From Candidatus Atribacteria bacterium ADurb.Bin276 (GTDB lineage Bacteria > Atribacterota > Atribacteria > Atribacterales > Atribacteraceae), in assembly GCA_002069605.1 (NCBI GenBank), contig MWBQ01000066.1:1-54499 (forward strand): a DNA stretch of 54,499 nucleotides, in the 5' to 3' direction. Both the position numbers and the translations under genes were made by a program. The notes beneath the pieces were generated by a model that searched no databases, was not told the origin of the DNA, and saw only the letters and a program-made list of their open reading frames with translations. Of the stretch, positions 1,554 to 36,793 are shown piece by piece. Numbering within the stretch: the stretch's first letter is position 1; the number at the start of each line of letters is the position of its first letter.

Positions 1554-1678
1554 TACTTTTTCATGAGTGAATTGATTGGTATCATAGTAGCTATAACTTT
1601 GCTTCTATTCAAGTTTTGTGCTAAGGGTTTCTTGGGGTAGGATCAGGAATGAATCGAATAAAAAGGAAGGAAATGAAT

Positions 1679-3907
1679 ATGAAAAAAAATGGTTCGATCA
1701 GTTGGTGGATCACCGGAATTATTCTTACCATCGGAGTTTTCGTTGGTGGAAGTCCAGTTTTTCCATTAAATGAATTGCCTCAACAATTTACCATTACCGT
1801 TTCTGAAACGGAAGTTAGACCGGGTCAAGAAGTCTTAGTCAGCTATACTGCTTCTTCCGATTGGAGCACAAATGCTTGGATAGGTTTGATACCTGCTGAT
1901 ATTCCTTTGGGTGACCAAAAAATTGCTGATGATAATGATCTTGATTATCGACATTTAAAAAATACCCGTCAGGGGAAGCTATCCTTTATTATTCCTGATG
2001 TTGAAGGAATTTTTAATTTTCGCTTATATCCCAGCGATGATGATAGCTATTCAGAAGTTGCAGTGAGCGAGTCTATCAAAGTGGTCAGAGAACCAATTAT
2101 TCCTTTGGATGCTAATCAGAATGGATTGAAAACGGAGAATCCTGTTGATGAACTTCCTTCCTTTCCAGATCAGGATGTTAATGAAACCTCTCTTTCCCAA
2201 CTGCCGGGAATTGGTCAAATTACAACCAATATTCCCCTTCTTACCCCGACTCCGATTCCAACTCTTTCAGAAGCATCCTCTTTTCCAATAAATTCTGAGA
2301 AGAAGGATGAACTCCCCTCCCTTTCACCAACCGAATCATCCCTCCCAGAATTATCACTTCCTCCAGTCGATTCCAATCCACCACAAGTCGTATTAACTCG
2401 TCCCCGTACTGGGGCGGTTGAAGTTTCTTTGGATGTTCAAATAGAAATACAGTTTGATGAACCAATTCAATCCGGCCCAACCTTTCAAACCATTACTTTT
2501 ATCGATCAGTTTCAGAAATCAGTTCAATACGAGGTTGAAATTCAGGATACCGTTTTACTACTAAAACCTCGATTGAATTTGGAAGCAAAAACAACCTTTC
2601 AGGTTATATTACCTCAACAATCTTTAATGGATAAACAAGGGAATTTGTTGCCGGATAATATAATTTTTACCTTTACAACTCTGGTTCCACCACCGATGAC
2701 GACGGTGTCTCTCCCTTTTATCGGAGGAAAATCCCAAGAAATTATAAATATACCCGTTTTTTTTAATGGGTCACAAAAAATTGCCTATATAGAAATGCTT
2801 TTAACTTTTGATCCGGATCTTCTTGATTTTTTAAGAATAACTACTGGAGAAATTAATGATAACTGGCTTACCCAAGCGGAAATTGTAGATATTGGCCGAA
2901 TCCGACTGTATATTACCCAAACAAATGACCAAAAATTAATCAAATACCAAGGCTCAATTGCGACCTTGCAATTTCGGGTAGTTAGTCGAGATAAAACTCT
3001 TTCCCAATCAGAACTATTGCTTGATGAATTAAAATTGTTAGATCAAAATCAGACTATGTTTCCTGGAACAGTTTTAAGTGGAATGTTTTCTCTTATTGGA
3101 AGTGAGAGCGACGCCGTTTCGAGTATGGGTGAAACTCCAACTCTGATTCCGATTAGCCCGCCAATTCAGGTTGAATTGGCGGATATGATTGTTGAACCAT
3201 CATCACTGCTTAACGGGAAGATTGGAGAAGAATACCTTTTTAAGGCGACTCTTGAAAATGTTCCAGCCTCGATAAAAAACATCAAATTCCAATGGAATTT
3301 TGGCGATGGATCAAAAATAATGGATAGTTCAGAAGGAGAAATGTCCCATGTTTTTACCCAACCAGGACCATTTGAAATAACGGTGAAAGCCTTCAATCGG
3401 AATAATGGTCAGATGATTGCCATGAAAAAATTGAAAGTTGAAATTATCCAGGACCCGCCAGTCACTCCAACTATAAATACCACCGAATCTCAAGTTAAAA
3501 CTCTTACCCATCGTGAAAAATATCCCAACGGCAAATTGAAAGTTCAATACACCTATTTGGTGCGTCCCGATAGGACTCAGGTAAAAAATGGCTTGGAAAC
3601 CAGCTGGTATGAAAACGGAAAGAAAAAAAGTGAAGGAGAGTATCAGAATGGGAAAAAAGTCGGTGTATGGGTTTCTTGGTATGACAATGGAGTAATCGGT
3701 CAAAAAGGGACCTATCAGGATGATCAAAAAAATGGTGTATGGATTAAAAACTACCGAAATGGCAACAAAGAGTCAGAAGGTCTTTATCAAAATGATTTGA
3801 GAGAAGGTCCTTGGAAAAAATGGTATGAAACTGGAAAGCTGTGGGCAGAATTTGAGTGCAAAAACGATCAAATTGTGCCGGGAAGTTATGTAGAACACCG
3901 GCCATAA
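1679..3907 (+). CDS. Secreted multi-domain protein: Ig-like, cohesin-like, PKD and MORN-like repeats
   Basis: This is a large exported protein of unknown function. From the chosen start it has a hydrophobic signal segment (about residues 5-28) and an N-terminal beta-sandwich that I cannot name (about 35-135). A Pro/Ser/Thr-rich linker follows (about 140-235), then a Big_5-like Ig domain (about 240-335) and a cohesin-like domain (about 340-475). A PKD domain comes next (about 500-590, FQWNFGDGS and HVFTQPGPFEITVKAF). It ends in about four MORN-variant repeats of the form WYxNGxKxxEGxYxNGxKxGxW. ATG 1679 is preferred because AAGGAAGG lies 8 bases upstream; ATGs at 1649 and 1673 are possible. 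It stands alone between divergent and repeat regions. A surface adhesion or scaffold role is an inference from the domains. Confidence 0.75.
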   Translation: MKKNGSISWWITGIILTIGVFVGGSPVFPLNELPQQFTITVSETEVRPGQEVLVSYTASSDWSTNAWIGLIPADIPLGDQKIADDNDLDYRHLKNTRQGKLSFIIPDVEGIFNFRLYPSDDDSYSEVAVSESIKVVREPIIPLDANQNGLKTENPVDELPSFPDQDVNETSLSQLPGIGQITTNIPLLTPTPIPTLSEASSFPINSEKKDELPSLSPTESSLPELSLPPVDSNPPQVVLTRPRTGAVEVSLDVQIEIQFDEPIQSGPTFQTITFIDQFQKSVQYEVEIQDTVLLLKPRLNLEAKTTFQVILPQQSLMDKQGNLLPDNIIFTFTTLVPPPMTTVSLPFIGGKSQEIINIPVFFNGSQKIAYIEMLLTFDPDLLDFLRITTGEINDNWLTQAEIVDIGRIRLYITQTNDQKLIKYQGSIATLQFRVVSRDKTLSQSELLLDELKLLDQNQTMFPGTVLSGMFSLIGSESDAVSSMGETPTLIPISPPIQVELADMIVEPSSLLNGKIGEEYLFKATLENVPASIKNIKFQWNFGDGSKIMDSSEGEMSHVFTQPGPFEITVKAFNRNNGQMIAMKKLKVEIIQDPPVTPTINTTESQVKTLTHREKYPNGKLKVQYTYLVRPDRTQVKNGLETSWYENGKKKSEGEYQNGKKVGVWVSWYDNGVIGQKGTYQDDQKNGVWIKNYRNGNKESEGLYQNDLREGPWKKWYETGKLWAEFECKNDQIVPGSYVEHRP

Positions 3908-3934
3908 GTCATTATTGGTTTTTTTTGGATAGAC

Positions 3935-4085
3935 CCTCATGCTGCCTAGCAGCACCAGATGAGGATGATTACAAAGATTCGACATGCCATGACATGTCGC
4001 TACATTAATTAAAGAATGGGTACAATACATTGTGCCCCTACATTTTTTTTAAATATTTTGTATGGGCTTGATTTATCATGCCCAT
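3935..4085. repeat. Cluster of four hairpin-forming palindromes
   Basis: Within the 219-base gap there are four consecutive inverted repeats. A is 3935-3964 (CCTCAT..ATGAGG around GCTGC CTA GCAGC). B is 3980-3999 (CGACATG..CATGTCG). C is 4018-4037 (GGGTACAA..TTGTGCCC, one G-T pair). D is 4062-4085 (ATGGGC..GCCCAT). B and C are each followed by a shared CTACATT. None has a proper U-tract, so these look like REP-type dispersed palindromes rather than a terminator. The word ACCAGATGAGGATGA near A recurs at 36643-36657. Confidence 0.6.
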
Positions 4086-4126
4086 GAGTTTTCAGGATAG
4101 ATTAGAAGCAACAGAAGGGATTACCA

Positions 4127-6031
4127 ATGATGGGATATTTTTATTTTATATTCTTTTTTTTACTGGGGATTTTTATTGCTTATAAAACATTTTATGAGCT
4201 ACCAAGAGTTCTAAGGATCTGGATTGGTGGTTTGATTGGTCTATTGGGTATGATGTGGCTAGTCATACCCATCGCTTTTTTTACTGGTTTTACATTTTTC
4301 ACCCACTTGGTGGCTTTAATTATAATGGGAGGATTTTCTTTATTGTGGTTTTTTCTTTATCACAAACCAAAGGATCAACCAGTTGTGTCTATTGATTATG
4401 ATACGAGAATATTTTGGTTGGTACTCCCTTTTTCTATTTATTTCATTTATCTTTTTTATACCCATTATTTGCTTCCCGGTCAAGATGGTCTTTATTGTGG
4501 AGGGAATGCCTATGGTGATTTAGCTTTTCATCTTGGCATCATCACCAGCTTTAAAGAACAACAGTTATTTCCACCTCAATATTCGATCTTCCCCGGCATA
4601 CGAATGGGGTATCCTTTTTTAGTTGATTCATTCACTTCCAGTCTGTATCTGCTTGGGATGTCGCTCCGTCATTCTTTATTGCTCTCCAGTATATCCATGG
4701 CTGTCCTTCTCCTGACCAGCTTTGTGGTTTTTGCCCAGGAAGTATTAAAAAAATGGAGTAGCACGGTTATTGCGACTCTGCTTTTTTTTATAAATGGAGG
4801 TCTAGGATTTTTTTATTATTTTCCGAAAAATTTATCACCCATCTTCTCAGAAATTGCCAATTCTCCTACCCACCTTTTTGATCAGAATATTATCTGGTCA
4901 AATGTTATCTGCGACTTGCTGATACCACAAAGAACCACCTTGGGAGGTTGGGCTTTTTTATTGTTGGCTTTATGGAGCCTTTATCGAGCCATAAATACTT
5001 CTCAAAGAAAATATTATTTTATGAGTGGATTGATAGCAGGTTTGTTGCCTATGATACACACCCATTCATTTTTAGCCTTTATAGTTGTCGCATTGATCTG
5101 GTTTATTTTTTTCCTGGTAAAATCCGATGAGAAAAGAAAATATGTTTTAGATTGGATGGTTTTGGTTCTCCCGGCATTTTTATTATCCTTTCCTCAATTG
5201 ATTTATTGGACTTTTCCCCAGTCGGTTTCTGGAGGATACCTTCGGTTGATGCCGGGATGGACGAGTAAAACTGACTTTTGGCCATGGTTTTGGATAAAAA
5301 ATACCGGTTTATTTTTCATTCTTCTTTTGCTGGCACTTTTTTCCCCAAAAAATCGGTTAAAAGCTTTTTATCTTCCGGCTATTGTTCTTTTTATTTTAGC
5401 TGAGTTGGTCATTTTTCAACCCTGGGATTGGGATAATATTAAAATATTATTTGTATGGTATATGTTTAGTGTAATTTTTGTTGCCAGCTATCTCGAACAG
5501 ATCATCCAAAAAATATCAAAAAAATCATGGAGAGCTCTTTTTGTCGGAATAGTTGTTGGTATCTGTATTCTATCAGGTACTTTTAGCTTGATACGGGAAG
5601 CAGTTTCTTCGATTCGGCTTTTTTCTATTGATGATTTAAAAGTAGCTGAATTTGTCCAGCAGCATACACCAGCGGATGCAATATTTCTTACTTCGGATTT
5701 TCATAATAATCCTATTTCTGTATTAGCCGGAAGGAATATTGTTATGGGATATGAGGGTTGGTTATGGTCGCATGGAATTGACTATCAAAAAAGAGCAGCT
5801 GACATAAGGGAACTTTTTTTAATTTCAGAAAATTTTGATCACCTGGTTAAAAAATATCAGATTGATTATATTTTGTTGAGTTCTCAGGAAAGGTCTAAAT
5901 ATGGGGAAAAAATCTTCCAGCTTATACAGAAGTTTCCTCTCGTTTATCAGAGTCAAAATTCAATGATTCTGGGAGTTTCAGAGCGAGTTCGACCGCTTCA
6001 CGACTCAATATTGAATCAAGATTCGAACTGA
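4127..6031 (+). CDS. Polytopic membrane protein, GT-C glycosyltransferase-like
   Basis: The 634-residue protein has about a dozen hydrophobic membrane segments and a soluble C-terminal part of roughly 120 residues. The first large external loop holds CGGNAYGDLAFHLGIITSF, an acidic/His pattern in the place where GT-C lipid-linked glycosyltransferases carry their catalytic acid. The motif ADAIFLTSDFHNNPISVLAGR in the tail resembles C-terminal domains of large bacterial membrane proteins of this kind. A role in transferring sugars from polyprenyl carriers outside the inner membrane is an inference; no sequence signature proves it. It overlaps by 16 bases, tail to tail, with the HD-GYP gene. Confidence 0.55.
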   Translation: MMGYFYFIFFFLLGIFIAYKTFYELPRVLRIWIGGLIGLLGMMWLVIPIAFFTGFTFFTHLVALIIMGGFSLLWFFLYHKPKDQPVVSIDYDTRIFWLVLPFSIYFIYLFYTHYLLPGQDGLYCGGNAYGDLAFHLGIITSFKEQQLFPPQYSIFPGIRMGYPFLVDSFTSSLYLLGMSLRHSLLLSSISMAVLLLTSFVVFAQEVLKKWSSTVIATLLFFINGGLGFFYYFPKNLSPIFSEIANSPTHLFDQNIIWSNVICDLLIPQRTTLGGWAFLLLALWSLYRAINTSQRKYYFMSGLIAGLLPMIHTHSFLAFIVVALIWFIFFLVKSDEKRKYVLDWMVLVLPAFLLSFPQLIYWTFPQSVSGGYLRLMPGWTSKTDFWPWFWIKNTGLFFILLLLALFSPKNRLKAFYLPAIVLFILAELVIFQPWDWDNIKILFVWYMFSVIFVASYLEQIIQKISKKSWRALFVGIVVGICILSGTFSLIREAVSSIRLFSIDDLKVAEFVQQHTPADAIFLTSDFHNNPISVLAGRNIVMGYEGWLWSHGIDYQKRAADIRELFLISENFDHLVKKYQIDYILLSSQERSKYGEKIFQLIQKFPLVYQSQNSMILGVSERVRPLHDSILNQDSN

Positions 6032-36418: not shown

Positions 36419-36793
36419 AATTTATGAAGTTGGTATTGAATGAGTATCGATAAAATTTCATCTCCAAAAACGTTGATATTATTTTGTAGTTATAGATGAG
36501 AGTGAAAACCTGGCAATTGGCATGGTTCTTTATTATTTGGGAGTAATAAATTGCACCCCGACAATTTTTTGCTTTTTGTAGAAGTTTGATTTTCAAAACA
36601 GCAAGCGGTTTGTAGAAAAGAATCCCAAGCCACTTGTGTAGTACCAGATGAGGATGAGGGTGAAAGCCCAGAATGAGATTCTGGTTGGTTGCTATAATTG
36701 AGTTAACTATAAAAACGTCATGGATTTTTAGAGTGGAATAATTTAAAAGAATATTTTTAATTACACCGAAAAGTAGGGTAGGTGGGTAATATA
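36419..36793. repeat. 375-base gap with a degenerate repeat pair and a palindrome
   Basis: No gene is supported here. The 16-base word at 36495-36510 recurs at 36653-36668 with two mismatches (GATGAG-GTGAAA-CC core), 158 bases apart. The second copy is followed by a CCAGAAT-GAG-ATTCTGG palindrome at 36668-36684. The 15-base word ACCAGATGAGGATGA at 36643-36657 also occurs at 3953-3967 beside the first hairpin cluster, so this looks like a dispersed repeat family. Confidence 0.55.

Follow-up and report, generated by a model that had tools for sequence, protein, structure and literature searches.

GTAG-tagged palindromes in a dispersed intergenic repeat of Candidatus Atribacteria, spread probably by a TnpA_REP transposase of a type present in a sister species

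The hairpin block and its repeat family

The window—by which we mean the entire stretch of 54,499 nucleotides analyzed here—carries on its minus strand an encapsulin iron-store pair, in which a shell gene (311–1114; PF04454, 270.7 bits) adjoins an encapsulated-ferritin-like gene (1168–1533; PF22277, 127.2 bits). Two plus-strand genes, of 752 aa (1649–3907) and 634 aa (4127–6031), come next, and the intergenic gap between them houses four hairpins, which we designate modules A to D:

3923–3971, plus strand: module A, the first part of a profile match at 3923–4093 that reads A+ B+ C+ D+; without a GTAG tag
3980–4003, minus strand: module B, palindrome at 3980–3999 and tag CTAC at 4000–4003, which on the minus strand is GTAG
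4018–4041, minus strand: module C, palindrome at 4018–4037 and tag CTAC at 4038–4041, again GTAG on the minus strand
4060–4083, plus strand: module D, tag GTAT (consensus GTAG) at 4060–4063 and palindrome at 4064–4083, inverted relative to B and C
4089–4101, plus strand: TTTTCAGGATAGA, the beginning of another, shortened module A, identical to the string that opens the consensus module A

The sequence, the folds, and the inverted repeats all confirmed the four hairpins that the initial annotation had placed in this gap. Module A is a long imperfect hairpin, flanked by TTTT..GGATAGAC on one side and by GATGATTA on the other, in which an inner 5-bp stem (GCTGC/GCAGC) lies inside an outer 6-bp stem (CCTCAT/ATGAGG) at 3935–3964, and in which an inverted repeat joins 3924–3940 with 3959–3975. 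As to the palindromes of the window copy, that of B has 10-nt arms that are 90% complementary and differs by one mismatch from GTAGCGACNTGCCNNGGCANGTCG; that of C has 9-nt arms with eight Watson–Crick pairs plus one G-T; and that of D has 9-nt arms with a single T-T mismatch. Set against dinucleotide shuffles, the block folded exceptionally well both as DNA (z = −5.47, 0/200 shuffles as good) and as RNA (z = −4.04, likewise 0/200).

Positions 3923–4093 proved to be one copy of a scattered composite repeat. When a 221-base query around the block was run with BLAST against the genome to which the window belongs (G000; 2.52 Mb in 231 contigs), 40 of the 215 first-look candidates were scored and at least 47 matches resulted, some of them additional fragments of an already matched copy; and the tagged B palindrome was listed at 75 places with 0–2 mismatches (one of them, on C85, entered on both strands), as against 0 for the backwards control. 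The palindromes are thus not unique in the genome, and these copy counts, together with the folding relative to the shuffles, bear out the original proposal of a family of palindromic repeats whose flank is conserved, rather than of chance hairpins. Beyond that genome, 16 of 41 related genomes matched the repeat, with the composite in all six genomes of the genus (G000 to G005, of which G002 is the sister MAG AS27yjCOA_164) and short pieces in ten others. The complete relative, G004, may, we presume, be Atribacter laminatus. An exact scan for the B palindrome plus CTAC in the GTDB species genomes—a scan from which the records of the own genome were possibly left out—returned 37 stretches, which assign the host to the Atribacterota: 36 of them were in the three Candidatus Atribacteria MAGs AS27yjCOA_181, UBA11188, and AS27yjCOA_164, and the remaining one in a Bacteroidia MAG. 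That lone match outside the Atribacterota (RUG12182, L121 1595–1622) is a double-foot form, with the tag on both sides. The family is old, because the most similar copy pairs within G000, G004, and G003 are only 93%, 95%, and 86% identical (medians 80%, 80%, and 73%).

We derived the anatomy of the repeat from two alignments, one of 41 copies and the other of 99 B-C-D units out of three genomes, which latter set comprises solely copies having all three modules. The consensus modules are TTTTCA...TGAAAA for A, CGACATGCCATGGCATGTCG-CTAC for B, GGGCACAATACATTGTGCCC-CTAC for C, and GTAG-GGGCTTGATTTATCATGCCC for D, the D tag sitting on the opposite side and strand from those of B and C, and module A showing no REP tag. 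The tag was exact after B in 82, after C in 58, and before D in 76 of the 99 units. The heptamer CTACATT, which had been noted after both B and C, is correct for the window copy, and a conserved flank does exist; but in the 99 units the conserved part is CTAC, beyond which the consensus of B continues with ATTAATTAA and that of C with AATTTTAT, so that the TT common to both in the window copy is partly due to chance. Of all feet of the 87 strong hairpins in 840 kb, GTAG showed the highest enrichment (20 seen versus 0.28 expected, for which enrichment, the copies being related, we claim no p-value), and all 20 hairpins belong to B, C, or D.

The pairing within these stems is largely kept: 90.7% of the cells in the aligned B-C-D copies were paired, and 35 cells were altered on both sides as against 15.2 in the shuffles, none of 500 of which reached the observed number. 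Two of the five pairing measures, namely the pairs with two-sided changes (109/500) and the further pair types (60/500), were unremarkable, and a longer stem linking the feet of C and D displayed a covariation no higher than in the shuffles. One position of the D stem was unpaired in 82 of 98 copies; the E. coli REPs, according to the accessible text of PMC8266576, likewise carry conserved mismatches, which are required for activity. B, C, and D therefore combine a palindrome of the 20–40 bp or so of GTAG-tagged REPs, capable of forming a stem-loop, with a GTAG at one stem foot and a high-copy, intergenic distribution: besides the 75 places, an ORF of ≥100 aa enclosed B in 0/22 cases in G000 and in 1/35 in G004, which context counts, here and below, are based on simple ORF calling and exclude the elements without a gene on both sides.

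Transposase genes associated with the tagged hairpins

When the genus was searched with the NCBIfam model, further genes and fragments of TnpA_REP transposases (RAYTs) of a shorter type came to light, a type that PF01797 had detected only through weak, partial matches. In G002 we found a 172-aa TnpA_REP-like Y1 ORF with the motifs NHIH, WQ, and YIANNP, flanked by two inverted B palindromes whose tags point toward the gene and which form a perfect inverted repeat of 30 bp, composed of B, CTAC, and six more bases. A sequence identical over 700 bases is that of contig JAAYUP010000300.1 of isolate AS27yjCOA_164 (L112). The 172-aa protein scored 61.2 with NF047646 (REP_Tyr_transpos), below the cut-off of 80, and 29.5 bits with PF01797, above the cut-off of 23; and its sole PDB match was the TnpA_REP 4ER8, at E = 0.064 for the protein alone and at E = 1e-4 over 39 positions for a profile of eight relatives. 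The gene possesses all three of the motifs NH[IFV]H, WQ, and YIxNNP that the table in the accessible part of PMC6006769 gives for subclass 2.4, to which subclass it would most likely belong, as judged from motifs and hairpins rather than from a tree. The association of B with a RAYT was accordingly found in G002 and not in the own genome. The idea that the palindromes are mobilized by a TnpA_REP was in this manner largely supported by a fitting Y1 gene in the sister species; no fitting transposase, however, was found in the own genome, and RAYTs of the shorter type were detected neither in that genome (98% complete, in 231 contigs) nor in G001, the two being carriers of the repeat.

Of the five other genus genomes, only G004 has a counterpart (90% identical) of the 189-aa gene that neighbors this REPtron. 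The matching G004 region, whose flanks are 88% and 89% identical, is 588 bp shorter and contains one B palindrome, without the RAYT gene, its inner ends, or the second palindrome. Either the REPtron arrived beside an existing B, or it left via recombination between the two identical palindromes. Among the RAYT loci examined, none had B-C-D as a unit—the REPtron carrying B alone—and none was seen with D as its own REP.

In the phylum as a whole, 18 of 50 Atribacterota genomes, G000 and G001 not among them, yielded relatives of the 172-aa RAYT, amounting to 24 genes or fragments once 29 search rows had been merged by contig and place. A hairpin with the GTAG tag and a stem of 7 or more lay inside 22 of these 24, or no more than 400 bp away, the two misses (G036:C51 and G043:C94) both being fragments; the background, measured over 400 kb of G004, was 0.07 tagged hairpins per kb. 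The other, longer Y1 loci had a tagged hairpin in 2/14 instances at a margin wider than that of the RAYT count, three of 17 loci having been excluded from this control by position for being too close to a contig end; and a stricter-motif control, which kept 5/17 loci, gave 0/5.

Many of the hairpins at the RAYT loci start with GTAGGGGC and end with GCCC, thereby resembling C and D. One of them, GTAGGGGCACAATGAATTGTGCCC in the RAYT locus G032:C105, is identical to a C-type place on C225 of the window's own genome; for D, the foot GTAGGGGC...GCCC is common to many RAYT hairpins, and the exact D stem is absent there. The GTAGGGGC...GCCC pattern occurred in 19 of the 50 Atribacterota genomes—five of the six of the genus, 14/14 of the family f7, and 0 in the other families—which spread is patchy, so that inheritance alone does not explain it simply. 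Among the literature matches listed for the letters GTAGGGGC, all were unrelated. GTAG hairpins were also observed inside the RAYT genes of other Atribacterota families (L275, L276, L277, L278, L279, and L282), the open frame of L282 passing through the hairpin. REPs in frame within RAYT genes are described for subclass 2.4 in the accessible part of PMC6006769.

Module order, gene context, and the resident transposase

The order of the modules was established in sampled stretches of three genomes, where A to D were searched with profiles from 41 aligned rows, and E to M with single consensus strings. C was preceded by B in 51/52 cases (17/17 in G000, 12/12 in the first 800 kb of G004, and 22/23 in G003) and followed by D in 52/52 (17/17, 12/12 in the same 800 kb, and 23/23, respectively); with neighbors so fixed, B-C-D is therefore one locked unit. 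At least nine further short repeats, the modules E to M, stand before or after A–D in a preferred order (L150–L229 of G004 and L170–L189 of G000), several of which resemble widespread small repeats, e.g., GTCATTGCGAGGAGC...GCAATCTC. The window itself contains modules A and F at 36611–36723. Multi-module chains ran on one strand in 29/30 instances in G000, 63/85 in G004, and 34/36 in G003, the mixed-strand chains of G004 numbering 22/85, and several aligned copies of the composite continued past D into a second module A. The composite shares with BIMEs the alternating REP orientation, B and C facing one way and D the other, as well as the company of other motifs such as A; the tandem iteration of a REP pair was not observed, there being no tandem B-C-D runs among the chains found, and we therefore term the composite BIME-like.

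The window's own site, occupied by A-B-C-D in G000, is nearly empty in G001, has A and B separated by extra pieces in G004, and bears other modules in G003 and G002, while G005 afforded a partial view only. For eight of the 42 distinct B-C-D sites of G000, both flanks found an anchor in the G004 stretches searched, the other 34 having none: B-C-D was present in two of these eight (one of which, on C196, is uncertain owing to overlapping anchors), other modules stood instead in five, and one had no modules; looser anchors added one shared site (L177:11994 with L169:6903). The site L177:13895 is empty in G004; since G003, the closer relative of G004, is occupied there, a loss would be the simpler reading. 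The empty sites are too diverged for the boundaries of a B-C-D insertion or a target-site duplication to be read.

Such a variable module content at one site, differing by species between constant outer pieces, might also reflect a MITE that belongs to some unrelated DNA transposon, or a mosaic formed through homologous recombination at short shared strings such as TTTTCAGGATAGA and GATGAAAA, in which event the likeness to REPs would be secondary. Modules A and E do have the 3' string GATGAGGATGAAAA in common and are interchangeable ahead of B, and A recurs after D, all of which would suit that explanation. We nevertheless consider it unlikely, for the alignment of the copies has TTTTCAGGATAGA in direct rather than inverted orientation at the two sides of the composite, and the explanation accounts neither for a GTAG on three different stems nor for the association with RAYTs. 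Recombination may well, for its part, shape the mosaic additionally.

Alternatively, the hairpins could act at the RNA level, as terminators or as stabilizers of mRNA, being retained for gene regulation and having spread without a transposase. On the plus strand, in the direction of both flanking genes, the window's C reads like a terminator stem with CTACATTTTT behind it, and the window's B like a weaker one on the minus strand (two found versus 0.3 expected); the stem pairs are, as described, kept across the copies; and 10/11 of the G000 elements between co-directional genes are oriented with those genes. In G004, however, nine are oriented with and seven against the genes, and B lies between divergent genes in 4/18 classified cases in G000 and in 8/29 in G004. 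Moreover, the G-T versus A-C mispairs favor no single RNA strand (24:41 for B, 48:23 for C, and 29:33 for D), the T-run after C is missing from the consensus, and Rfam returned only chance-like matches, namely mir-1972, whose 28.6 bits stand against a gathering score of 90, as well as a still weaker one. Because the mispairs favor no RNA strand and the strand preference is absent in G004, the context and the mispair data speak for an element acting at the DNA level, though the window's C is terminator-like; and with the GTAG tag and the RAYT gene between two B palindromes left unexplained as well, we hold a primary role in RNA to be quite improbable.

There remains the transposase gene of the own genome. 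The search for a TnpA_REP (Y1) gene that had been proposed along with the palindromes did reveal one, at L047:1465–2331; but this gene is associated with long inverted repeats of its own and not with GTAG hairpins. The repeat bracketing it, TGGGGTCAGGTCTTGATTCTTGAATT, contains GGGGTCAG; the protein has a C-terminal helix-turn-helix; and no tagged hairpin was found near the gene. These traits recall the TIRYT/TIRtron of PMC3733652 (subclass 2.1 in PMC6006769), whose GGGGWSAS inverted repeats correspond to GGGGTCAG here, and whose C-terminal HTH and end-sequence copies elsewhere L047 also matches; the accessible parts of those two sources do not link that type to GTAG REPs. The end sequence GGGGTCAGGTCTTGATTC (L047 1421–2357) constitutes a repeat family in its own right, with 2 to 38 places in all six genomes of the genus (10 in G000 and 38 in G004; backwards control 0), the G004 places clustering near 2.52–2.57 Mb. 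Although the genome has no other Y1_Tnp match and this one scores above the NCBIfam cut-off for REP_Tyr_transpos (86.6 bits versus 80), we reject this gene as the mobilizer of the palindromes—which role seems most improbable—in view of its own inverted repeat, the core of which is a separate repeat family, of its marks of a TIRYT, and of the nearby tagged hairpins that it lacks.

A BIME-like composite of GTAG-tagged palindromes

We consider it probable that B, C, and D represent REP palindromes with a GTAG tag, joined in a BIME-like composite, and that they were spread, most likely, by TnpA_REP transposases of subclass 2.4. A RAYT of that type would recognize the hairpin along with its GTAG foot in single-stranded DNA and would cut and rejoin the single-stranded hairpin, thereby spreading both REPs and REP pairs; C and D, with their tags face to face, would represent the inverted layout of a REP dimer. 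Enzymes of this class might thus have spread B, C, and D, and B-C-D would formerly have moved as a whole unit. To judge from the sequences compared, the gene pertaining to B appears to survive in the sister species, and the copies in the window's genome appear to be relics without a resident matching enzyme.

The composite would accordingly belong to the known REP/BIME kind as an apparently new variant. With the GTAG-tagged REPs described in the accessible portion of PMC3733652 it shares the short, high-copy, intergenic palindromes with GTAG at one foot, the pairs with facing tags (the TT dimers of that work), and the RAYT genes bracketed by repeats; the hosts given there are Proteobacteria, Cyanobacteria, Chloroflexi, and the PVC group, with the Atribacterota not named in that portion, and here, unlike there, three different stems make up one locked head-tail plus tail-tail unit. 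The BIMEs, as far as the available text of PMC8266576 and PMC2817692 goes, are similar in having REPs in both orientations together with other short intergenic motifs, but are built, often as tandem copies, from a REP and its inverted counterpart belonging to one set, whereas B, C, and D differ from each other and the unit is not tandem in the aligned copies. The likeness to the subclass 2.4 TnpA_REPs of the part of PMC6006769 at hand extends to NH[IFV]H, WQ, and YIxNNP, to REPs flanking the gene or lying in frame, to REPs of long and of double-foot form whose feet carry GC pairs, and to a distribution scattered across phyla; the difference is that the gene was not found in the window's own genome.

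In a non-exhaustive search we came upon no published report of REPtrons or of such palindromes in Atribacterota, and the accessible portions of PMC7736352 and PMC11227167 contain no mention of palindromes, transposase, or intergenic, and use "repeat" twice each with an unrelated meaning. GTAG REPs and their transposases are now placed in that phylum. More tentatively, and with considerable doubt, we might go further and suppose B-C-D to be a transposing unit with a novel layout, in which the REPs of at least two TnpA_REP lineages became fused in a fixed order, and the B-REPtron to enter or leave the genome flush with a resident B. The spread of REPs is described as poorly understood in the accessible text of PMC8266576, and the occupied and empty REPtron sites at the element's own palindrome offer a pair with a defined donor, target, and product for testing. 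Should that supposition be true, the REPs would serve these transposases as ends and targets and would also be the scars they leave, and the mosaics between genes would constitute a record of repeated REP-targeted insertion.
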